A DNA stretch of 64,000 nt from Fodinibius halophilus (lineage in GTDB: Bacteria; Bacteroidota; Rhodothermia; Balneolales; Balneolaceae): assembly GCF_011059105.1 (NCBI RefSeq), contig NZ_JAALLS010000020.1:1-64000 (forward strand). The letters run 5' to 3'. Under the pieces are notes generated by a model that searched no databases, was not told where the DNA came from, and was given only the letters and a program-made list of their open reading frames with translations. How positions within the stretch are numbered: position 1 is the stretch's first letter; each line of letters opens with the position of its first letter. This document shows, piece by piece, positions 16,163 through 63,177 of this stretch. The position numbers and the translations under genes were made by a program.

Positions 16163-16556
16163 AATGGAGGAAATGGGATTTGGAATTTTCCGTTATCTAT
16201 TGATGAAATGTTCTTTAGAGAGGATTGCGAAGTGTCAAATAGCTACTTGTTCAGAAGTTAAATTTAGCATGATAGCGGGAGTGCAACTCTCTTGGAGCTA
16301 GTGCGGATTAAGAATTCAGGACTCAGAATTCAGAATAGAGTATTGTCGAATATATACTGCTCTAAATTAAGACGTTTTTCCTCCCTGGGCGACTGGGATT
16401 GTCGTCCGCCGAAGCATATAAAGGAAAGTTTTTTAAAGCCTACTGAAGAAATGTAAGAATACTCAACCGAGTTGGTACAGTAATATTGGTGTGCGGTGTA
16501 GCTTTTGTCACGTCGGGAGTATAACTCCCTGGGAACTAAAGGGGAGTTCTCAGGAG
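16163..16556. other. Non-coding stretch between the cupin gene and hisA
   Basis: 394 bases without a gene. It holds a short 7-bp-period array (16311-16338), a segment at 16387-16420 that resembles 8445-8476, and small inverted repeats near 16515-16545 (GGGAGT ATA ACTCCC). It appears to be repeat debris between hisA and the cupin gene. Confidence 0.5.
16311..16338 (+). repeat. Short degenerate heptanucleotide array
   Basis: Four units in register with a 7-base period: AGAATTC, AGGACTC, AGAATTC, AGAATAG. The same AATTCnn theme appears in the longer array at 61987-62042. No gene is attached here. Confidence 0.6.
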
Positions 16557-17279
16557 CTAAATGGGAGTGTGATATTCAAGCATTTCGTCTAGTGTTAACT
16601 TCTCTTCGTAATAGGCGCGGCCGACTACAACCCCATACATATTTTGTTTTTCTAAAGCCTCCAGATCTGTAGCATTGGAGACCCCTCCGGAAGCGATAAA
16701 GTTTAGGTCCGGGAACTGGGATTTGAGTTTTTTATATAGTTCCAGGTTTGGCCCCTCGAGGGTACCGTCTTTTGATATATCAGTGCTGAGAACGGTTCGC
16801 AATCCACGATCAATCATCGGTTGTAGAAATTCTACTAATGTTTGGTCAAGGGTTTCCAGCCAGCCGCCGTATGCTACCTTTCCATCTTTCAAATCCATTC
16901 CCAATATTGCTCTTTCTCCATAGCTGTCTAGTACCGAGAGCCATGCCTCTTTGCTTTTAACGGCCATGGAACTGCAAATAATATTTGCTAAGCCTTTTTC
17001 AAGCAGCATTGAAGCATCATCATAGCTGCGAATACCGCCTCCGGTTTGAACGGAGATACCCAGCTCGTTAATGATTTCCTGAATATGTTCAAGGTTTATA
17101 AACGCTCCCTCTTTGGCACCATTCAGGTCTACTATATGAATGTGATCAAAGCCTGCTTCTTGAAACTTTCGCGCTTCGTCAAGTGGGCTGTTATTATATA
17201 CGGTTACTTCATCATAGTTACCTTTGTGCAGGCGGACTACCTGCCCATCTAGTAGATCAATAGCGGGAATAACTTTCAT
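16557..17279 (-). CDS. hisA: Phosphoribosylformimino-5-aminoimidazole carboxamide ribotide isomerase
   Basis: This 240-residue TIM barrel performs the Amadori isomerisation at histidine step 4. The N-terminal VIPAIDLLDGQVVRLHKGNY holds the catalytic Asp; QTGGGIRS and FIASGGVSN are the phosphate loops, and STDISKDGTLEGPNLE carries the second Asp. It is the first gene of the downstream his block, more than 8 kb from hisH. No typical promoter box is obvious in the 90 bases upstream. Confidence 0.96.
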   Translation of the reverse strand: MKVIPAIDLLDGQVVRLHKGNYDEVTVYNNSPLDEARKFQEAGFDHIHIVDLNGAKEGAFINLEHIQEIINELGISVQTGGGIRSYDDASMLLEKGLANIICSSMAVKSKEAWLSVLDSYGERAILGMDLKDGKVAYGGWLETLDQTLVEFLQPMIDRGLRTVLSTDISKDGTLEGPNLELYKKLKSQFPDLNFIASGGVSNATDLEALEKQNMYGVVVGRAYYEEKLTLDEMLEYHTPI

Positions 17280-17369
17280 TTTTGGAACATTTTATATTGT
17301 CTTTTTTATCGGAATCGGAAAGTACAAATAGCAGAATAGAGTTCACAGTAAATTGTCTTAAAACTTTTA

Positions 17370-18554
17370 TTAATACGACCATTTCAGGCGGAAGTAAAAA
17401 AGATTGGCCGCATCAGTTGCGTTCTTGAAAACCGATCCTTTAAGTAGTTGAGATAAGAGCAGAAGGTCTATATCATCGGTTACTGAGATGGATACTTGAG
17501 GAATAGTAATAAAAATGGAGCGATCGAAACTGCCCATAAATCCAAGGTTACCACTGACAAGAGGGTGCAGTTGATATGATCCATTAAGGAAAAAACCGGT
17601 TTTGGCTATAAACAGATTGTCAGCACTTGGGGGACGTACAAGAGTACTCAACGGCCTGCCTTTTGAATTATATCCACCATTATAGAGTAGTTCACCTTGT
17701 AGGTATAAACCGTTAGATAACATATAATCGAAGCCGGTAGTGGCCGTAAAATGTCCGGTATCTTCAAAGAACTGATCTTCAGGGTGGAAATAGGAGATCT
17801 CTCCTTTGAATCCGGCATCTCCGATGTAACCGGCCCAGCCGGTTCCCAAAGTCGTTTTGTCGAGATAATGTCCAGCGGTAAACTGTATATCATAATTTTC
17901 CCAGTTGGTGCGTATGATACCGCTTACTATGGATTCTTCCCAGCTATCACCAAGGCGGTAGCCCACTTCTATACTTGAAGCATAGCTCCAGTTATATTGA
18001 AGAGAAAGGGCATCAACACCGGGACGTTCTTCGTAATCAAAATCCAGGAAGGCGTAATTGTTAAACAGATCGTTGGGATTCCAGACATAGGTACGTCCCC
18101 AATTTATGCGCTGGCGGCCGGCATGGATCTCCCATGGGCCGTTGATATAGCTAAGATGCAGTCGGTCGATATTGGAGTGCATCAGGGATTGATCCGTAGC
18201 AAACCATACCCATGATAAGTCAAAATAGTTGGCATCATTTTCGTAGAACTGCTCCAGTCCGGGCGTGTTATTAACAGTATAGCCATTGAGCAGGCGGCTT
18301 CGCAGGTCGGCTCGGAATTCAAAATGTGTTGATAAATCCCACTCTGTTTCTAAGCGGTGATGGAGGATATTATCATAGCGAATGTCCGAAAAAGCATTAT
18401 TTGTGGATATTTGGCCCAGTTCTTTTACGTATCCGTTTATATCCAGATCGAAGGAGGATTGTTGGGCTTTCACGGATTGAAATCCCAAAAGAAGTAGACA
18501 AATACCAAATAGTAAATGAATATATTTTATAGGGGAAATCATATTTTCGTTCAT
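17370..18554 (-). CDS. Outer-membrane beta-barrel protein in the ABC/LolA-like operon
   Basis: This 394-residue protein has a signal peptide (cleavage near VKAQQSS) and many short amphipathic strands, ending in FRLKWSY. The conserved-looking block GRQRINWGRTYVWNPNDLF (about residue 140-160) resembles porin-like barrels found beside lipid-export systems. It starts 8 bases after the LolD-like ATPase gene, so it is probably made with the transporter. In this context it could be the outer-membrane exit or acceptor for what the permeases extract; this is inference. I do not assign a Pfam family. Confidence 0.78.
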   Translation of the reverse strand: MNENMISPIKYIHLLFGICLLLLGFQSVKAQQSSFDLDINGYVKELGQISTNNAFSDIRYDNILHHRLETEWDLSTHFEFRADLRSRLLNGYTVNNTPGLEQFYENDANYFDLSWVWFATDQSLMHSNIDRLHLSYINGPWEIHAGRQRINWGRTYVWNPNDLFNNYAFLDFDYEERPGVDALSLQYNWSYASSIEVGYRLGDSWEESIVSGIIRTNWENYDIQFTAGHYLDKTTLGTGWAGYIGDAGFKGEISYFHPEDQFFEDTGHFTATTGFDYMLSNGLYLQGELLYNGGYNSKGRPLSTLVRPPSADNLFIAKTGFFLNGSYQLHPLVSGNLGFMGSFDRSIFITIPQVSISVTDDIDLLLLSQLLKGSVFKNATDAANLFYFRLKWSY

Positions 18555-18562
18555 CTTATCTT

Positions 18563-19264
18563 TTAAGCATTTGGATGCTCTTCCCGAACGTCATCTTTGG
18601 CAATTTTACCATCCACAAGGGTAACAACACGGCGTGCGCGGTCAATAACGCGTTGGTCGTGGGTAGAGAATACAAAGGTCATATTTTCTTTTTCGTTGAG
18701 GTCAGCCATCATGTCCAGCAGGTCGGCTGTAGATACGGAATCAAGGTTTGCGGTAGGTTCATCAGCCAGTACAAAATCGGGGTTCGAGGAAAGAGCCCGC
18801 GCTACGGCTACCCGCTGCTGTTGCCCGCCGGAAAGTGCGGAGGGACGTTTATTAATTTTATCAGCGAGCCCAACTTCTTCTAATAAAGTCCGGCTTTTTT
18901 TATTGCACTCTTTCTGGGGACGTCCCTGCATCTGCATCACGAAAGCCACATTTTCAATAGCAGTAAGGACGGGAATAAGGTTATAGGCCTGGAAAACAAA
19001 GCCGATATGTTGCAGCCGAAAGTTAATAAGTTCGCTATCAGAAAGGGTGCTCAAATCAGTACCCTGTACAATAGCGGTGCCATCGGTTGGGGAGTCGAGT
19101 CCTCCAATAATATTCAAAAGTGTGGTTTTACCTGAGCCCGATGGACCTACTATAGCGGTAAATTCTCTTTTTTCAATTTTGAGGTCAACACCGTTGAGGG
19201 CATGAACCGGGACTTGGTCTTTATTATAAACTTTGGTTAAGCCTTTGGTTTCTATTACAGCCAT
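18563..19264 (-). CDS. ABC transporter ATP-binding protein, LolD/MacB type
   Basis: This 233-residue ATPase has Walker A GPSGSGKTT at about 40-48, a Q-loop in FQAYNLIPVLTAIENV, signature ALSGGQQQRVAVARAL, Walker B VLADEPTANLD and switch His in FVFSTHD. The LIPVLTAIENV stretch is typical of LolD/FtsE-like ATPases that work with FtsX-type permeases, two of which lie upstream. A 7-bp repeat array ends (read on this strand) only 6 bases before the ATG, so no Shine-Dalgarno is visible. The barrel gene follows by 8 bases. Confidence 0.93.
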   Translation of the reverse strand: MAVIETKGLTKVYNKDQVPVHALNGVDLKIEKREFTAIVGPSGSGKTTLLNIIGGLDSPTDGTAIVQGTDLSTLSDSELINFRLQHIGFVFQAYNLIPVLTAIENVAFVMQMQGRPQKECNKKSRTLLEEVGLADKINKRPSALSGGQQQRVAVARALSSNPDFVLADEPTANLDSVSTADLLDMMADLNEKENMTFVFSTHDQRVIDRARRVVTLVDGKIAKDDVREEHPNA

Positions 19265-19270
19265 AATTTA

Positions 19271-19361
19271 CGGGTTTCGGGTTGTGTGTTATGTGTTGCG
19301 GGTTGTGTGTTTCGTGTTGCGGGTTATGGGTTGTGAGTTGCGAGTTTCGGGTTGTGGGTTA
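19271..19361 (+). repeat. Degenerate heptanucleotide array next to the LolD-like gene
   Basis: Thirteen consecutive 7-base units in perfect register, for example CGGGTTT, CGGGTTG, TGTGTTA, TGTGTTG, CGGGTTG, TGTGTTT, CGTGTTG, CGGGTTA. Position 5-6 (TT) is invariant and positions 1-3 and 7 vary. It lies between the ATPase start codon and the end of a four-helix-bundle gene. The array on the far side of that gene (19757-19845) has the same unit in the same orientation. Confidence 0.9.
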
Positions 19362-19371
19362 GGGTGAGGTG

Positions 19372-19737
19372 TTATGTTTTCCAGCTTGTTTCGACGTATT
19401 GGATGAAATGATTGATCTTGCGACCCAGTTTGTCGTATTTATCCAACAGTTCTGTTAATGGATCATCCGAAAAATGAATATCACTGATCATCTGTAATTG
19501 GCTGATGGTTTCATCACAGGAGGCGTGAGCAAAAATAAGAAACCTAATGAATTCCTTTTTATATCTTCTTCTTCCAAATCCTTCGGCAATGTTATCTTTG
19601 ATACTTTTTGATGATCGCCGGATCTGACTTCCCTGTTCATATAATTCATACTTCGGCAAATCCATGCTCATTTTGTGAACCTCTAAGGCGTAATCATATG
19701 CCATGTTATATATCTCTAAATCTGTATGGCTCTTCAT
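19372..19737 (-). CDS. Four helix bundle protein (23S rRNA intervening-sequence family)
   Basis: The product has 121 residues and is mostly helical. Hallmarks of the family are LEIYNMAYDYALEVHKMS near the start, QIRRSSKSIKDNIAEGFGRR in the middle (IAEG core) and a final helix region. These proteins form pentameric bundles; relatives are encoded in 23S rRNA intervening sequences, and Avd of diversity-generating retroelements is a distant relation. No function is established. The gene interrupts an ABC operon between permease 2 and the ATPase, on the same strand, and is bordered on both sides by 7-bp arrays of the same type. The frame is intact. Confidence 0.9.
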   Translation of the reverse strand: MKSHTDLEIYNMAYDYALEVHKMSMDLPKYELYEQGSQIRRSSKSIKDNIAEGFGRRRYKKEFIRFLIFAHASCDETISQLQMISDIHFSDDPLTELLDKYDKLGRKINHFIQYVETSWKT

Positions 19738-19756
19738 GATGGTTGTTTTTTTGTTT

Positions 19757-19845
19757 CGGGTTGCGGGTTATGGGTTACGGGTTGCGTGTTACGGGTTTTG
19801 GGTTGCGTGTTGCGGGTTTCGGGTTGTGTTGCGGGTTGCGGGTTT
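19757..19845 (+). repeat. Degenerate heptanucleotide array on the other side of the four-helix gene
   Basis: About twelve full 7-base units plus one shortened unit: CGGGTTG, CGGGTTA, TGGGTTA, CGGGTTG, CGTGTTA, CGGGTTT, TGGGTTG, CGTGTTG, CGGGTTT, CGGGTTG, then TGTTG (2 bases lost), CGGGTTG, CGGGTTT. It ends 12 bases before the end of the permease 2 gene. Unit and orientation match the array at 19271-19361. Confidence 0.9.
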
Positions 19846-19857
19846 GCGTGAAACGCT

Positions 19858-21078
19858 TTAAATCTTTCGTATTGCTTCTACGGGTTTTAGTTTTAGTGTT
19901 TTCCAAGCGGGGTATAGGGCTGATAAAATAGCCGCTACACTGATAAGCAGGGTGATATGCCAATAGTAACTGGCATTTAATTTGGGATAGATTACGGTTT
20001 CCATGCCATAGGCGTTAAGTCCCTGGGCAAATGCGCTGAGGTCGATGCCCGTTGTTCCCAAGATCGAGACGGTGATCCAACTAAACAGTAAGCCCAGCGG
20101 AGTTCCGACCATCGTCAGAAAGAAGGTTTCAGAAAGTACCATCCCAAACAGGCGGCGTTTGTTCATCCCAATAGCCATAAGCATGCCGAGCTCGCGTGTG
20201 CGCTCCATTACGGCCATCAGCATGGTATTGATAATACTGAATACCAATGCAATAATGATGATGACCATAACAACGTACATCGATACGTCCGTCATACTAA
20301 AGACATATTCAAGTTCCGGAGCGATAGCAGCCCAGCTGGCGATTTTGAGATCCGGATAAGAGCCTGAAAGCTGTTCGGCCTGTTGGGGGGCATTGGTAAA
20401 ATTTCCAAGCTTTAGTGTTATCTTATGAATAAGATCCTTTTTGCCCAGCAGGCGGTTTAGGTCACTTCGTAGTACAAACACATTTCTTTTGTCATATTTT
20501 GAATTAAAGGAATCGAAGATCCCCGCCACGCGGAAAGCACCTGCGGTAATATTTCCATCTACATCTTGGAAGCTGAGGACCAATTTTGATCGAAGGTCCA
20601 GCTTCAAACGTTCGGCCAGGGCTTTTCCAATAAGAATGGGATTGCGGTCTATGCTTTGAAGGAAATCGCCCTGTTTGAGATATTGGATGACAGGTGGTGG
20701 GCTTGTATGAGTTGTATCGACTCCATGGATAGTAACACCGTAGCTATTGGCCGCACTTTGTGCCAGGCCCGTTGATTGACTTTCATACTCAATTTGCTGG
20801 ATATGCTTTTGCTCGGCCAGAGTATCTAACAGACTTTGTACCTCTTCAATATTGTACTTGGGATTAAATTGATCCCCGAACTGGGGATTTGTTATCTGGA
20901 TATGACCGACTGTTAGATCGAGCTGGTTTTGCAAGTACCCCTGCGCCATGCTGTTAAAAAAGGCGGAGATAAAAACACCGGCCCAGATTCCCAGCAGTAC
21001 GGCAATGATTACGACTCCACTGCGTGTTGGATTACGCCAAATGTTCTTCCATCCGAGTGTGATAATTTTTCGAATCAT
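19858..21078 (-). CDS. ABC transporter permease, FtsX/LolC-E type (second of two)
   Basis: This 406-residue inner-membrane protein has one N-terminal transmembrane helix (about 20-45), a large periplasmic domain of the MacB-core type (about 45-270), then three C-terminal helices of the FtsX domain, including the block FSIINTMLMAVMERTRELGMLMAIGMNKRRLF. Its N-terminus IITLGWKNIWRNPTRSGVVI closely matches that of the upstream permease, so the pair probably arose by duplication and forms a LolCE-like heterodimer. The start lies 1 base after the other permease's stop codon. Confidence 0.92.
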   Translation of the reverse strand: MIRKIITLGWKNIWRNPTRSGVVIIAVLLGIWAGVFISAFFNSMAQGYLQNQLDLTVGHIQITNPQFGDQFNPKYNIEEVQSLLDTLAEQKHIQQIEYESQSTGLAQSAANSYGVTIHGVDTTHTSPPPVIQYLKQGDFLQSIDRNPILIGKALAERLKLDLRSKLVLSFQDVDGNITAGAFRVAGIFDSFNSKYDKRNVFVLRSDLNRLLGKKDLIHKITLKLGNFTNAPQQAEQLSGSYPDLKIASWAAIAPELEYVFSMTDVSMYVVMVIIIIALVFSIINTMLMAVMERTRELGMLMAIGMNKRRLFGMVLSETFFLTMVGTPLGLLFSWITVSILGTTGIDLSAFAQGLNAYGMETVIYPKLNASYYWHITLLISVAAILSALYPAWKTLKLKPVEAIRKI

Positions 21079-21079
21079 A

Positions 21080-22303
21080 TCAGGACCTCATAGCATCAAC
21101 AGGGTTCAACTTGGCGGCTTTAAGAATAGGGATGATGCTGAACAGCAGGGTGATTCCAAAGACGATAAGTGCCTGGCTGGTAAATATTTCGGGATCGGTA
21201 GAGAACTGTAGTACGGGCGTCATGTTATACTGCTCAACAGCCGAAGCCATAGCTCCCGAAAGATCGATGGGATTTACATTGAAGTACCAGGCAACGGGGA
21301 TGCTCAGAAAGATGCCAAATCCTGCTCCCATTAGACTCATGATGAGTACTTCGAGAGATAGTATTTTGGCGATGGTGCTGCGCGGCGTACCTACCGAGAG
21401 CATGACACCAAATTCATAGCTACGTTCAGCAATCATCATCAGCACGGTGCCTAAAATGCCGAAGCCTACCACCATGTAGAGTACGAGAAGAATGATGATT
21501 CCACTGGCCCGATCCACTTTAATAGCCTGTTCTAGTTCCGGCATCATTTTTTGCCAGGTTAATACTTCATATTCACTGGCCGGTAACTTGCTCTTAAGGT
21601 AATCGGCCGTTACATCTATTCCTGTGGGATCTTCCAAGTTGAGCGCAATAGAAGTGAGTCGACCTTGGGCTGAAAATAGGTATTGGGCGGTTTCCAGGGG
21701 TAGATACACCAAACTGCTGTTCATATCGGGATTGGAAAATGAGACCGTTCCTTTAATAGGATAGAGGCCTGTAGCATTCATCCCGTGGTAGCCTTGGCCA
21801 ATAAGAACCAGGCTGTCACCAACTTGGGCATTCAGTCGATTCAATAACTCTTGACCGATAATAGCTGCTTGTTCGTTATTTGAGGAAAAATAACTTCCCT
21901 GCTGCAAATTTATCTGTGGCTGGCTGAGCTCTTTTTCTGCCTCTACATCAATTCCCATAATCATAGCCGGTCGACTTTGTTGCCCGGTTGCTGCCAGCGA
22001 ATACGATTCGATGCGGGGAATGATTGAGCTAATATTATCTTCCGATTTAATAATTTGATACAACGAATCGCTAACACCCAGACTGTTATTCAGAGTAGGG
22101 GTATCCTGGTAACCCTTTTTGTGGATTTGAATATAGCCGGAGAAAGTCCCTACCGTATTTTCGAGCATATTATCGTACTGTCCTTCCTGAGAGGAGCGTG
22201 TAATGGCTGATAAAAAGACGGCAACAACAATAGAGAGCGTTGTGATGATGGTTCTACGCTTATTCCTCCAGATATTTCGCCATGCTAATTTTATTGAAAG
22301 CAT
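21080..22303 (-). CDS. ABC transporter permease, FtsX/LolC-E type (first of two)
   Basis: This 407-residue protein has the same layout as its partner: an N-terminal helix after KLAWRNIWRNKRRTII, a periplasmic domain (about 45-275), then three helices with VLMMIAERSYEFGVMLSVGTPRSTIAK and a C-terminal FSIIPILKAAKLNPVDAMR. FtsX-type permeases of this class do not move solutes through the membrane but extract lipids, lipoproteins or peptides from its outer face. A four-helix-bundle pseudogene with repeat arrays on the opposite strand separates it from the LolA-like gene upstream. Confidence 0.92.
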   Translation of the reverse strand: MLSIKLAWRNIWRNKRRTIITTLSIVVAVFLSAITRSSQEGQYDNMLENTVGTFSGYIQIHKKGYQDTPTLNNSLGVSDSLYQIIKSEDNISSIIPRIESYSLAATGQQSRPAMIMGIDVEAEKELSQPQINLQQGSYFSSNNEQAAIIGQELLNRLNAQVGDSLVLIGQGYHGMNATGLYPIKGTVSFSNPDMNSSLVYLPLETAQYLFSAQGRLTSIALNLEDPTGIDVTADYLKSKLPASEYEVLTWQKMMPELEQAIKVDRASGIIILLVLYMVVGFGILGTVLMMIAERSYEFGVMLSVGTPRSTIAKILSLEVLIMSLMGAGFGIFLSIPVAWYFNVNPIDLSGAMASAVEQYNMTPVLQFSTDPEIFTSQALIVFGITLLFSIIPILKAAKLNPVDAMRS

Positions 22304-22316
22304 TTTTTCTAGTGGA

Positions 22317-22351
22317 CAGTTATCAGTGACCCGTACACAGTGGTCATTGAA
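22317..22351 (+). repeat. Degenerate heptanucleotide array upstream of four-helix pseudogene
   Basis: Five units in 7-base register: CAGTTAT, CAGTGAC, CCGTACA, CAGTGGT, CATTGAA. The unit differs from the CGGGTTG type at 19.3-19.8 kb. It begins 14 bases from the permease 1 start codon. Related units appear inverted at 22798-22825 beyond the pseudogene. Confidence 0.65.
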
Positions 22352-22431
22352 GTGAAAATTTATTTGTAAGGATGTACTCTTTTAAAAGGTCATACTATCT
22401 AAGTAAGGGATTTAGTTAAGAGAGAATATTT

Positions 22432-22784
22432 GTGGATAATAATCTTTACGAGAAGTCACAGGCATTTGCTATTAGGATTGTCAAGGCATATCAACTTTTA
22501 AAGGATAAAAAGCGTGAGTTCGTCTTATCAAAGCAGCTTCTACCAAGTGGTACTAGTATTGGAACAAATATTGCAGAGGCAAATGGTGCTATTTCAAAAG
22601 CTGATTTTTCAGCTAAAATTTCAATTTCATATAAAGAGTGTTTAGAAACAAAGTATTGGTTAATCCTCCTGGGGGTACTAACTTTATCGATGAAGAAACA
22701 CATGATAGTATATTTAATGATGCCGATGAACTGGCAAGAATTCTATTTTCCATTTTGAAGAAAACCCGTATTGATCCGAAGTAA
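22432..22784 (+). pseudogene. Four helix bundle protein gene, frameshifted in a G5 run
   Basis: The frame opens at GTG 22432 and encodes a family-typical N-terminus (SQAFAIRIVKAYQLL, LLPSGTSIGTNIAEANGA, SYKECLETKYWLILL). At GGGGG (22671-22675) the reading frame shifts: the original frame ends at 22758 with an atypical tail, while the next frame carries the expected C-terminal helix (TNFIDEETHDSIFNDADELARI...) to a TAA at 22782-22784. An indel in the G run explains this, so the gene is broken or could be phase-variable. It runs opposite to the ABC operon and is a different subfamily from the copy at 19372. Confidence 0.82.
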
Positions 22785-22797
22785 CTTAACGATTTTG

Positions 22798-22825
22798 TTA
22801 CTGTAAACTGATAACTGTTCACTGT
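22798..22825 (-). repeat. Degenerate heptanucleotide array downstream of four-helix pseudogene
   Basis: Four units in 7-base register on the plus strand: TTACTGT, AAACTGA, TAACTGT, TCACTGT. Read on the minus strand they become ACAGTGA, ACAGTTA and so on, matching the CAGTTAT/CAGTGAC units at 22317 in inverted orientation. The array ends 1 base before the stop codon of the LolA-like gene. Confidence 0.65.
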
Positions 22826-22826
22826 T

Positions 22827-23585
22827 TTAATCAACACGTTTCATATTTTGAATGCTAAAGAATCGCTCATCAATATCAGTATTGAAGGCGATATCCTCGT
22901 AAAGCAATACCGTCTTTTGGTCTTTTTTATTCATAGGAATCATCTCCATTTTTGTTGGGATGGTTCGTCCATTCATGTTCTTAATTCTTGAGCCCTCCAT
23001 TACCTTAATCAATTTTCCATCCTCATTATAAAATTCGGTACGCAGCTGCAGATACTCTTGTTTGGATATAAAGCTGATTAGTTTTCCCCACACGACGGGG
23101 GCCTGGGGTTTGGGCGTCATTTCAATTTTATAGCACTTATAATCACTTATAGTACTGTCACCGGCCATTGTATGGTTATAGTCAGTAACAATGGAAGATT
23201 CTTCCACCAGGTCGTTATTGGAGAAATCCGATCCCATCCAGGATTGACTCATCATCGAGGGGGGCATTTTGATCGTTCGATTGATATTAGGCAGCCAGTT
23301 CCAGATCTCATTCTCTCGTTTTAAATAAGCTGTACCCTCGTCGCGGGCCGGGGCCGTCACAAGGATGAGGCTGTAATCGGTACCCAGGCTCCAGGCCTTC
23401 ATTGTTACTTCGCGCTGCCAACTTGGGCGTACAATCTTCATAGTTATTTTAGCGCGTGAACTTTCTCCCCGCATTTTCTTGTCCGCTTTTTGGACAATAT
23501 CAGTAGCATCTTGGGCCTGTAGCATCGTTACGCCACTGAATAATAGTACACTTATTACAAAACAATACTTTTGTATGAACTGCAT
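22827..23585 (-). CDS. LolA-like outer membrane lipoprotein-sorting protein
   Basis: This 252-residue periplasmic protein has a signal peptide cleaved near MLQAQDA. The mature part starts with the ATDIVQKADKKMRG helix and then forms the antiparallel sheet of the LolA-like fold, with RDEGTAYLKRENEIWNWLPNINRTIKMPPSMMSQSWMGSDFSNNDLV, a block typical of the family annotated as outer membrane lipoprotein-sorting protein. Such proteins have a hydrophobic cavity for acyl chains. Encoded ahead of two FtsX-type permeases and a LolD-like ATPase, it is probably their periplasmic carrier. True LolA normally serves lipoproteins; the cargo here is not known. Confidence 0.88.
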   Translation of the reverse strand: MQFIQKYCFVISVLLFSGVTMLQAQDATDIVQKADKKMRGESSRAKITMKIVRPSWQREVTMKAWSLGTDYSLILVTAPARDEGTAYLKRENEIWNWLPNINRTIKMPPSMMSQSWMGSDFSNNDLVEESSIVTDYNHTMAGDSTISDYKCYKIEMTPKPQAPVVWGKLISFISKQEYLQLRTEFYNEDGKLIKVMEGSRIKNMNGRTIPTKMEMIPMNKKDQKTVLLYEDIAFNTDIDERFFSIQNMKRVD

Positions 23586-61969: not shown

Positions 61970-61986
61970 CACGGACACGAATACTC

Positions 61987-62042
61987 AATTCCTAATTCTC
62001 AATTCCTAATTCCTAATTCTTAATTCCTAATTTCCAATTTCC
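61987..62042 (+). repeat. Heptanucleotide array abutting the DUF368 gene
   Basis: Eight units with exact 7-base spacing: AATTCCT, AATTCTC, AATTCCT, AATTCCT, AATTCTT, AATTCCT, AATTTCC, AATTTCC. The last unit ends 1 base before the TTG start codon at 62044, leaving no room for a Shine-Dalgarno. No four-helix-bundle gene is attached. Confidence 0.92.
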
Positions 62043-62043
62043 C

Positions 62044-63177
62044 TTGTCTAAAACTGACCAGCCCGATTCCAACTCTGATTCTACATCCTGGAAAGAATAT
62101 CCCTTTCTATTACTTAAAGGCTTTTTAATGGGCTCAGCCGATATTGTTCCCGGCGTAAGTGGGGGCACAATGGCGCTGATTGTAGGTATCTATACCCGTC
62201 TCATTAATGCCATAAAAAGTTTTGACACTCATTTTTTTAAACACCTGTTTACCTTCAAACTGAAGAAAGCTTTTGAAGGTGTGGATTGGCGTTTTATGGG
62301 TGTACTGTTGGCTGGGATGTTTGCAGCAGTACTCTTCTTCACCAAGGTAGTTCCGCTTCAGATATATATGTTTACCGATCCGGAGCTTATTTTTGGTCTC
62401 TTCTTTGGATTGATCGTCGGCTCTATAGTCATTCTCACCAAAGCAATTGAGAACTTTGGCTGGATTCATGGGCTGATGATATTGATTGGAGCGGTCATCG
62501 GCTTTTGGGTAGTAACATTGGTGCCGGCCGATACCCCCGATTCACCACTGTATGTTTTTCTAAGTGGATCTGTTGCTATCTGTGCCATGATTTTGCCGGG
62601 TATCTCGGGCTCCTATATTTTGCTGATTCTTAGAAAGTATGATTATATCCTAAGCCAGATTGGGAGTCTTGGAACGGTAGATACGACTACAGCCTTACTG
62701 GCTTTATTACCCTTTGTGGTAGGGGCCATTTGTGGATTGATGCTTTTCTCACGGCTTCTTTCCTGGTTGTTGAAACGATATGAGGCCAAAACACTTGCAG
62801 TGCTTATAGGTTTTTTGATTGGCTCGTTATATGTTATTTGGCCATATCAAAATAGAACGTATAAAGAGATTGTCAGTAAGAAAACGGTGGTTGAATATAT
62901 GAGTCCTAAAGCTGTTGAACTGCGTAATAATCCGCCCTCCGAAAAGCGCCCTGAATTTCATAGACTGGGCGAAGTAATAAATCCTGACGCAACATTTAAT
63001 AAGCTTAAAAAAATTGAACTGCTTACGATTAAAAAGAAGTTGATTAAGAGCGATCCATTTGTGCCGTATGCTACCGTTAAGGGGGCAAATACGGCTCATT
63101 TTTGGGATGGGGTGATAGGTGTTTTTATTGGACTTTTGATGGTACTTGGGCTTGATTATGTACGAGCTAAAGGATAA
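62044..63177 (+). CDS. DUF368 family membrane transporter
   Basis: This 377-residue protein has about nine transmembrane segments. LLLKGFLMGSADIVPGVSGGTMALIVGIY near the N-terminus is the DUF368 signature, with a second inverted-like half around AICAMILPGISGSYILLIL. DUF368 proteins have been reported to recycle undecaprenyl phosphate across the inner membrane (PopT). The TTG start follows a heptanucleotide array directly; an internal ATG at LMGSADI would remove the first helix and is unlikely. An intrinsic terminator follows. Confidence 0.9.
   Translation: MSKTDQPDSNSDSTSWKEYPFLLLKGFLMGSADIVPGVSGGTMALIVGIYTRLINAIKSFDTHFFKHLFTFKLKKAFEGVDWRFMGVLLAGMFAAVLFFTKVVPLQIYMFTDPELIFGLFFGLIVGSIVILTKAIENFGWIHGLMILIGAVIGFWVVTLVPADTPDSPLYVFLSGSVAICAMILPGISGSYILLILRKYDYILSQIGSLGTVDTTTALLALLPFVVGAICGLMLFSRLLSWLLKRYEAKTLAVLIGFLIGSLYVIWPYQNRTYKEIVSKKTVVEYMSPKAVELRNNPPSEKRPEFHRLGEVINPDATFNKLKKIELLTIKKKLIKSDPFVPYATVKGANTAHFWDGVIGVFIGLLMVLGLDYVRAKG

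Follow-up and report, generated by a model that had tools for sequence, protein, structure and literature searches.

A gene of the IVP family (PF05635 / TIGR02436, four helix bundle protein) is carried by one described class of short inserts with complementary ends, the 23S rRNA intervening sequences (IVS). In the excerpted account of the Coxiella 23S IVS, the insert has inverted ends, an S23 ORF and RNase III cleavage, and tandem GACAGAT heptamers lie upstream of the ORF in numbers that vary between strains (PMC4990558). The elements described in the current study share with the 23S rRNA IVS both the protein family and its placement in a short insert with complementary ends, whereas they lie between protein genes, their arms are themselves heptad arrays and may be direct, their repeat unit is common to IVP relatives and their gene-less arrays are dispersed. 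The IVS elements are probably kin of this class. Heptamer repeats of unknown origin are the second relevant phenomenon. Excerpts from the literature report them from Xanthomonas, Nostoc, Beggiatoaceae and Geobacter (PMC4692102, PMC4679880, PMC2700814), the known heptads of the first three being GGGAATC, GGGGA(C/T)T and TAACTGA, respectively, and describe arrays that are mostly intergenic and, in Xanthomonas, often inverted pairs (PMC4692102, PMC4679880). In these excerpts, the repeats have no gene of their own and no link to IVP genes is made, whereas the arrays reported here are tied to a gene family. Arthrospira strain-specific genes include four helix bundle genes, the excerpted text making no mention of repeats (PMC8700078).

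REP/RAYT systems (REPtrons) likewise combine a gene flanked by repeats with many dispersed gene-less repeat copies. The RAYT protein is a transposase of the HUH type and each REP is a single palindrome, whereas here the protein is a four-helix bundle, in which we know of no catalytic residues, and the arms are tandem 7-mers. MITEs are short and intergenic with inverted terminal repeats; here, the ends are instead tandem arrays, a conserved gene is carried and there is no transposase relation. The accessory protein Avd of diversity-generating retroelements (DGRs) resembles the focal IVP protein in its fold, but no reverse transcriptase (RT) adjoins the focal IVP gene. Each known class considered differs from these elements in a defining feature. 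In searches of the open-licence PMC literature, covering mostly titles and the first lines of abstracts, no paper was seen to link IVP genes to flanking heptad arrays outside the Coxiella IVS, in agreement with a sequence-only reading of this locus, which had supposed that such a link would be new.

An IVP element within an ABC operon

The window, that is, the whole 64,000-nucleotide stretch of Fodinibius halophilus DNA that was analysed, contains the features collected in Table 1.

Table 1. Features of the window, in order of position
Feature	Position	Strand	Basis or remark
Gene-less AATTCAG-type array	16299-16349		Arm match to congeneric IVP loci
ABC ATPase, LolD-like, downstream neighbour of occupied junction	18563-19264	-	ORF and profile match
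Downstream arm of focal element, degenerate 7-bp array, CGGGTTG type, same direction as upstream arm	19271-19365		TRF
Focal IVP gene (PF05635 / TIGR02436, four helix bundle protein), 121 aa	19372-19737	-	ORF and profile match
Upstream arm of focal element (gene orientation), degenerate 7-bp array, + strand unit CGGGTTG type	19753-19850		TRF
Permease 2, FtsX/MacB-type, LolCE-like, upstream neighbour of occupied junction	19858-21078	-	ORF and profile match
Permease 1 of ABC operon, FtsX/MacB-type	21080-22303	-	ORF and profile match
Upstream arm of second IVP element, ACAGTNA-type heptads	22311-22346		Arm comparison
Two-box promoter-like site between arm and second IVP gene	22365-22395	+	
Second IVP gene, upstream of permease 1 of ABC operon	22432-22758	+	PF05635 match
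Downstream arm of second IVP element, inverted	22796-22826		TRF period 7
ECF sigma factor gene, near ABC/LolA-like operon	24010-24558		
Gene-less AATTCCT-type array	61975-62053		Best arm match IVP locus G000:C23:173420 (L009)

The sequence-only reading had placed an IVP-family gene exactly between permease 2 and the ATPase, with degenerate 7-base arrays of about 13 units on both sides, and this description stands. The focal protein scores 96.1 bits against PF05635 (cut-off 33.8) and 104.2 against TIGR02436 (cut-off 24), while the period-7 rows of TRF give 12.9 copies at 19271-19360 (score 61) and 13.4 copies at 19753-19844 (score 93); at multiples of this period, the highest row scores are 121 and 124 and the arrays extend to 19365 and 19850. 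The gaps it gave are likewise correct, with 6 bases between the ATPase ORF end at 19264 and the array start at 19271, and 12 bases between its array end at 19845 and the permease ORF end at 19858. For the permeases, the best NCBIfam model is lolCE with a score below the cut-off, and for the ATPase the nearest model is lolD. The pattern GTT(NNGNGTT)x3 yields 18 overlapping matches genome-wide (4.19 Mb, 91 contigs), all within the two focal arms, and the same pattern read backwards yields none in the whole 4.19-Mb genome; the focal arrays are therefore not a product of chance. The IVP gene is the only ORF of at least 80 aa between the arms, there is no transposase gene inside the element, and the interval 17000-23000 has no Rfam match at the gathering score. 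The gene does not lie inside a 23S rRNA gene, its site being the permease/ATPase junction, and its arms are direct, so that they provide no complementary ends forming a stem. As tandem 7-bp units in intergenic DNA, the arms are heptanucleotide simple sequence repeats with degenerate units.

The IVP gene is under strong purifying selection. Among 45 ortholog pairs, which are not independent and in some cases saturated, the median dN/dS (NG86) is 0.06, with values below 0.5 in 43/45, so that the gene is evidently kept for its product. The AlphaFold model of the focal protein, predicted as a monomer, is a four-helix bundle (pLDDT 93.1), and in Foldseek it matches 2gsc_B (TM 0.83/0.85) and 2rld_B (TM 0.82/0.88), solved relatives with five chains each, as well as a DGR ribonucleoprotein chain, 8ub7_C (TM 0.76/0.82, E 0.062). 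The 8ub7 chains matched are, we assume, Avd. In the focal genome, the sole RVT_1 match is on contig C10 and the window is on C13, with no RT beside the focal IVP gene; RVT_1 is absent in 4/12 congeneric genomes with IVP genes, so an RT is not needed in every host. At G009:C5:255052-256514, a weak PF05635 match lies beside an RT together with a strong direct repeat (DIR 140, INV 17), and this locus is probably a DGR.

A second IVP gene is present in the window. Its PF05635 match ends at profile position 83 and its 3' end is apparently frameshifted, and G003 encodes a stop-free copy near its own permease 1. A PADLOC defence search returned no match for the two window IVP proteins. Two-box sites of the kind preceding the second gene (TGTAAGG-N13-18-GTCNTAC-like) are found ahead of many IVP genes of the window's family and were seen in 49/309 loci; they resemble ECF-type promoters. 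TGTAAGGA occurs in 25/208 IVP upstream windows vs 6/~4,440 control windows. The two-box site is also found in 4/20 control stretches and therefore seems to mark a wider regulon.

Heptad arrays and their matching arms

The focal genome has 15 PF05635 matches and 12 congeneric genomes have 82, which were merged to 80 units. Each flank of 235 bp was scored by its self-match at a fixed lag over 35 comparisons, with the best window retained and a score of at least 20 considered strong. At lag 7, 75/160 IVP flanks in the 12 congeneric genomes were strong vs 14/634 flanks of other genes in twenty 20-kb stretches (2.2%), and 7-base arrays are thus not equally common beside other genes. At least one flank was strong at 50/80 loci and both at 25/80. 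An excess was also seen at lags 8, 14, 15, 21 and 28, with little or none at lags 4, 5, 6, 9, 10, 11, 13, 17, 20 and 22. Phylum-wide, PF05635 is found in 116/148 genomes, and among the 28 best-scoring new loci, 29/56 flanks were strong and 19/28 loci had a strong flank on one or both sides. A scan of named genomes provided the best 80 of 583 confirmed stretches, many of them metagenome-assembled, of which 62 belong by record title to Bacteroidota and 18 elsewhere. Of their flanks, 96/160 were strong at lag 7 vs 4.6% of 416 windows elsewhere in those loci, both flanks being strong in 40/80; other lags gave 1.9-7.5%, except 8 (20%), 14 (41%), 15 (11%) and 21 (19%). The flanks below the array threshold number 85/160 in the genus and 64/160 in the named genomes.

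Among the 18 non-Bacteroidota loci, 19/36 flanks were strong. These loci come from Chlorobiota, Nomura-, Doudna-, Parcu- and Gracilibacteria, Nitrospirales, Atribacterota, Desulfuromonadales, Syntrophobacterales, Alpha-, Beta- and Lambda-proteobacteria, Limnohabitans and Thiohalocapsa, together with two Omnitrophota, one cyanobacterium and one Methanophagales archaeon; in the archaeal and cyanobacterial loci, whose flanks are cut by a contig end, the inverted pair was not found. A further 16 places, non-Bacteroidota by title and taken from the 45 other PF05635 places listed in the same genomes, gave 22/32 strong flanks. One locus below the family cut-off (L394) had no array signal and one with a partial match (L393) had no inverted pair. 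Plasmid records with an IVP match number 18, of which 17 are cyanobacterial. Ten of the 18 records, including two near-duplicate pairs, were examined, and the cyanobacterial plasmid loci had at least one strong flank in 10/10 and an inverted score of at least 46 in 6/10, with L311 stronger in direct orientation (125); their arm units include TAGGGAG, AAAGGGA, AGGTGAC and GGGTGTA. On two of these plasmids (L311, L315), the IVP element lies between cas6 and cas4 of a CRISPR-Cas locus. A tblastn search with one IVP query against 50,697 phage records found no match. The sequence-only reading had mentioned heptanucleotide repeats as known in some cyanobacteria; the IVP link extends far beyond the focal operon and the cyanobacteria.

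To compare the two arms of a locus, the upstream flank was matched to the reverse complement of its own downstream flank, with partners permuted 10,000 times. Across the 80 genus loci, the own-locus inverted sum was 2453 vs a permutation maximum of 1771 (mean 1489, sd 42). The direct orientation was also above chance, but weaker than the inverted (1787 vs a maximum of 1649), its signal being led by the DGR-like locus (140) and the focal locus (84); scores beyond the 99th percentile of cross-locus scores were reached by 23/80 genus loci inverted and 9/80 direct. At G000:C45:86600, 28/28 inverted bases are identical (AAAGTGT AAAGTTT TAAGTGT TAAGTTT). For the best 80 named loci, the inverted sum was 2720 vs a permutation maximum of 1629 (mean 1464, sd 37), with 60/80 loci above the 95th percentile of cross-locus scores and 34/80 above the 99th, and for the 16 further non-Bacteroidota places it was 581 vs a maximum of 414. 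Both arms of one locus tend to share a heptad, usually inverted. The direct focal arms are an exception, and arm inversion is consequently not required everywhere. The single orientation noted in the sequence-only reading thus holds at the focal locus and fails as a rule for the family, in which inverted arms are commoner, while the single heptad type on both sides extends to the family as matched arms, with the heptad itself differing between IVP subfamilies. In three sets of loci, the coding strand of upstream arms is 24-27% G and 7.5-12% C, the focal upstream arm being reversed, and G exceeds C in 89/103 upstream arms with an inverted score of at least 30.

Heptads that go with the gene and heptads without it

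With the focal IVP as a query in its family, 60 of 77 genomes had a match, and its relatives (62-82% identity) are located at five different junctions, the names of whose neighbours are a reading of translated flanks. These are the ABC junction (G000, G005), a junction between genes that read as frr and smc, occupied in nine genomes from a single genus, a site before a LolC/E-like permease (G204, G178, G182), a site before an aminotransferase (G049) and another place (G057, G137). Their arms are of the CGGGTTG or GGTTGCT type and look inverted by eye everywhere but at the ABC junction. In the upstream arms of L237 (G137) and L238 (G178), GGTTGCT is repeated over long, nearly perfect stretches that look like recent expansion. 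Arm similarity rises with IVP identity among 208 loci with an intact domain (24/232 loci lacking one were dropped), when pairs without related flanks are compared: an arm match of at least 30 was found in 1.4-2.2% of pairs at identity <0.45, 4.6% at 0.50-0.55, 7.3% at 0.55-0.60, 19% at 0.60-0.70 (n=247), 19/39 at 0.70-0.80 and 9/9 at 0.80 or above, the high-identity pairs being non-independent (39 pairs from 33 loci and 9 from 13, the focal locus taking part in 5 and 3 of them, respectively). In G007, two copies with 94% identical domains occupy unrelated sites and have similar arms. It is therefore evident that related IVP genes share a heptad and that the heptad goes with the gene to unrelated junctions. 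Heptad labels on the IVP tree, which are too coarse and were read without a shuffle comparison, undergo 26 changes with 32 of 70 non-syntenic loci labelled. Gaps in 47 ortholog pairs comprised 9 of 7 nt, 7 of 6, 1 of 8, 16 of 5 and 8 of 11, and these indel lengths, along with the long perfect runs in G137 and G178, point weakly to array expansion. Of the earlier phrase "mobile or expanding", mobility is thus well supported by genome comparison and expansion weakly so.

The state of the permease 2/ATPase junction varies among the relatives. It measures only 5 bp in G010, 10 bp in G003 and 11 bp in G008, which bears out the claim that the unit fills the junction. In G011 it is 12 bp when counted from the last aligned codon and 6 bp when counted from the stop codon, and in G001 it is 70 bp, without a clear array; as these five junctions have no gene, the insert does not occupy the same place in all relatives. 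The IVP gene and direct arms are present in G005, while only array scars are found in the closest relative, G006 (86% in permease 2; 77 bp of AACCCGN heptads), and in G004 (118 bp of decayed heptads), neither of which has the gene. When the two scars were compared with the arms of intact loci, their best match was the focal arms (39 and 43), followed by other members of the focal subfamily, the third match for G004 being an unrelated locus at 31. The G009 junction is 149 bp long and contains an inverted pair of a different heptad, and in G002 and G007 the orthologous permease was not found.

Two other junctions show comparable variation. At frr/smc, 9/10 genomes of one genus have the gene (one with an internal deletion and one with a stop), and in the tenth, G187, the gene is absent and 132 bp of inverted GGTGTTA-like arrays remain, with no intact arm match of at least 30 (best 28). 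In the frr/smc survey, which covered 30/85 genomes with an smc match, 20 loci from other genera had no IVP gene in the stretch examined, L306 having been mis-parsed and L303 being only 160 bp. For the aminotransferase junction, a close ortholog (78%) exists in only G110 of seven other genomes, where the downstream arm of the G049 element is kept nearly letter for letter and other sequence replaces the gene. This includes a short broken frame between TGATTCA-like stretches, which has no PF05635 match and was taken, by eye, for the beginning of another IVP. A near-identical empty site, from which a target-site duplication could be read, was not found, the nearest pairs showing replaced or decayed elements. 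Together, we read these junction states as turnover, in which an element would be gained, its gene would decay with the arms left behind, and the junction could be re-occupied.

Arrays also exist where no gene is present. For the stretch 16270-16360 of the window, the 80 congeneric IVP loci include two matches, G011:C1:655657 and G000:C2:17778, and the proteins encoded there resemble each other. In the same comparison, the mean number of loci matched was 0.53 for random 400-bp windows (maximum 2) and 0-0.8 for shuffled copies (maximum 3). Two strict lag-7 arrays occur in the window besides the two focal arms, and two, both AATTCCT-type, occur in 400 kb of control DNA. Altogether, 464 kb yielded 6 strict arrays at lag 7 (four in the window), 3 each at lags 6 and 9, and 1 at lag 8. 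The pattern AATT(NNNAATT)x3 has 55 matches in the focal genome, a count of one AT-rich type whose heptads might arise by slippage; the matches listed form at least 24 clusters, one of which (C23:173355) is beside a PF05635 match. For seven AATT sites and the window AATTCCT array, the matches are mainly to arms of IVP loci whose heptads contain AATT, the best-matching of which, among those whose protein was inspected, are of the KSGTSIGAN type. Several heptad types are combined in L350 and L352, two mosaics that match 19 and 16 of 80 loci, respectively. Like L355, they form intergenic islands in which several heptad families follow one another, as though arrays attracted further arrays, a pattern that is clear in these two mosaics. 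In four cyanobacterial plasmid stretches, 14/20 strict arrays lie away from an IVP gene, and at L322, 2 of 7 outlying arrays consist of the resident element's own heptad. At L347 (G000:C6:9467), AATT-type heptad arrays were seen by eye inside an apparent CRISPR array (repeats ...TAGCACCTTAGAGGAATTGAAAT).

Candidate explanations and their implications

Based upon these features, we consider it probable (roughly 0.6) that the loci represent an undescribed class of mobile element, with an IVP protein that would recognise the heptad of its own arms and with movement that would depend on machinery of the host. The comparisons establish the anatomy and the dispersal of the elements, whereas recognition and mechanism are the inferred part. 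Such an element would consist of an IVP gene of ~360 bp bracketed by two arms of degenerate tandem 7-mers. Its protein would bind its own heptad in many copies, whether as DNA or as RNA, and a pentamer binding repeated short sites would suit heptad arrays; a title cited in PMC10053308 describes 2gsc as five four-helix bundles. Heptad recognition would keep both arms of one type and may allow host replication or repair to copy the element, or its arms alone, into gene junctions. Upon decay of the gene, the arms would remain as dispersed heptanucleotide repeats. As the element contains neither a transposase nor an RT, its movement would have to use host functions. The arms stay of one type despite a drift without register, the type follows relatives and gene-less arrays persist; we infer heptad recognition as the simplest common cause of all three.

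A rather unlikely alternative is that these are RNA-level inserts, whose inverted arms pair in the operon transcript and are excised by RNase III, such that the IVP gene is a passenger or a binder of the excised RNA and the heptads matter only as a stem. The Coxiella 23S IVS offers a precedent in its S23 ORF, inverted ends and RNase III cleavage, as excerpted (PMC4990558). Element orientation is also in keeping with this scenario, since a co-directional junction with the element in the same direction was found in 50/73 genus, 21/25 phylum and 65/73 named called loci (17/188 loci were not called), where 215/315 adjacent pairs of control gene neighbours are co-directional. However, 15/151 called elements between co-directional neighbours are antisense, the direct arms at the focal locus and in G005 cannot pair, and a stem leaves the 7-bp period, the unit common to relatives and the gene-less single arrays unexplained. 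The register of the arms argues against a stem as well. In 34, 12 and 40 loci picked because both of their flanks were periodic, own arms matched at 16.9-17.0 of 21 in inverted orientation, above the cross-locus match (12.6-13.2 of 21), vs 16.3-18.2 between units of one arm. Because own arms match about as well as units within one arm, there is no unit-by-unit register beyond the shared heptad. Among eight frr/smc orthologs, own arms scored only slightly higher than cross arms (23.8 vs 21.4), two of the eight rows having untrimmed upstream sequence. An RNA stem and heptad recognition could also both be true, with the arms bound as RNA by the IVP protein.

It is improbable that the arrays came first, having been produced in junctions by polymerase slippage, with IVP genes inserting into them or surviving beside them. 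Gene-less arrays and mosaic islands of several heptad types do exist, and heptanucleotide repeats are over-represented in several genomes according to excerpts of PMC4692102 and PMC4679880. Against this, the focal heptad pattern is found genome-wide only in the focal arms, control DNA has few strict lag-7 arrays (2 in 400 kb), the inverted heptad shared by both arms is far beyond permutation, and heptads follow IVP relatives across unrelated sites. Very improbable is a non-mobile arrangement, in which the heptads are operators of an autoregulated, vertically inherited IVP gene. The proximity of the arms to the gene, the promoter-like site at many IVP genes of the window's family and the strong purifying selection would all suit such a role, yet relatives with the same heptad occur at five junctions, the permease 2/ATPase junction is 5-11 bp and without the element in some relatives, arms lie on both sides of the gene, and arrays persist without it. 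Finally, arrays made by an RT with a short template, telomere-repeat- or DGR-like, and with IVP in the role of Avd, are scarcely credible and, as a general cause, are ruled out by the 4/12 congeneric genomes that have IVP genes without an RVT_1 match, despite the Foldseek match to DGR ribonucleoprotein chains, the homology between the IVP family and Avd noted in the excerpted PMC10053308 and the PF05635 match adjoining an RT gene in G009, which itself is without inverted heptad arms (INV 17, DIR 140).

If the mobile-element reading is correct, IVP genes would form the active component of a class of small elements present in many phyla, ranging by record titles from Bacteroidota, Cyanobacteria and Proteobacteria to Omnitrophota, candidate phyla and others. 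A broader proposal, which we hold tentatively and at somewhat less than even odds, is that the IVP proteins, as one large family, bind heptads in a sequence-specific manner, with a particular 7-mer for every subfamily, and that they spread and maintain cognate arrays through genomes, in cis where the gene is present and in trans where it is absent. Orphan bacterial heptanucleotide repeats (the cyanobacterial heptads, Xanthomonas GGGAATC and Beggiatoaceae TAACTGA) might then be footprints of the element class and the rRNA intervening sequences one of its special landing sites. Two orphan phenomena, a very common protein family to which no function has been assigned and the bacterial heptanucleotide repeats, appear to be parts of one system. 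The element class, if real, would supply natural protein/7-mer pairs for studying sequence recognition by a four-helix bundle, as well as a concrete hypothesis for the origin of rRNA intervening sequences and of Avd. The origin of heptanucleotide repeats likewise becomes directly testable, and the leftovers of such elements could explain part of the 7-base repeats scattered in bacterial genomes.
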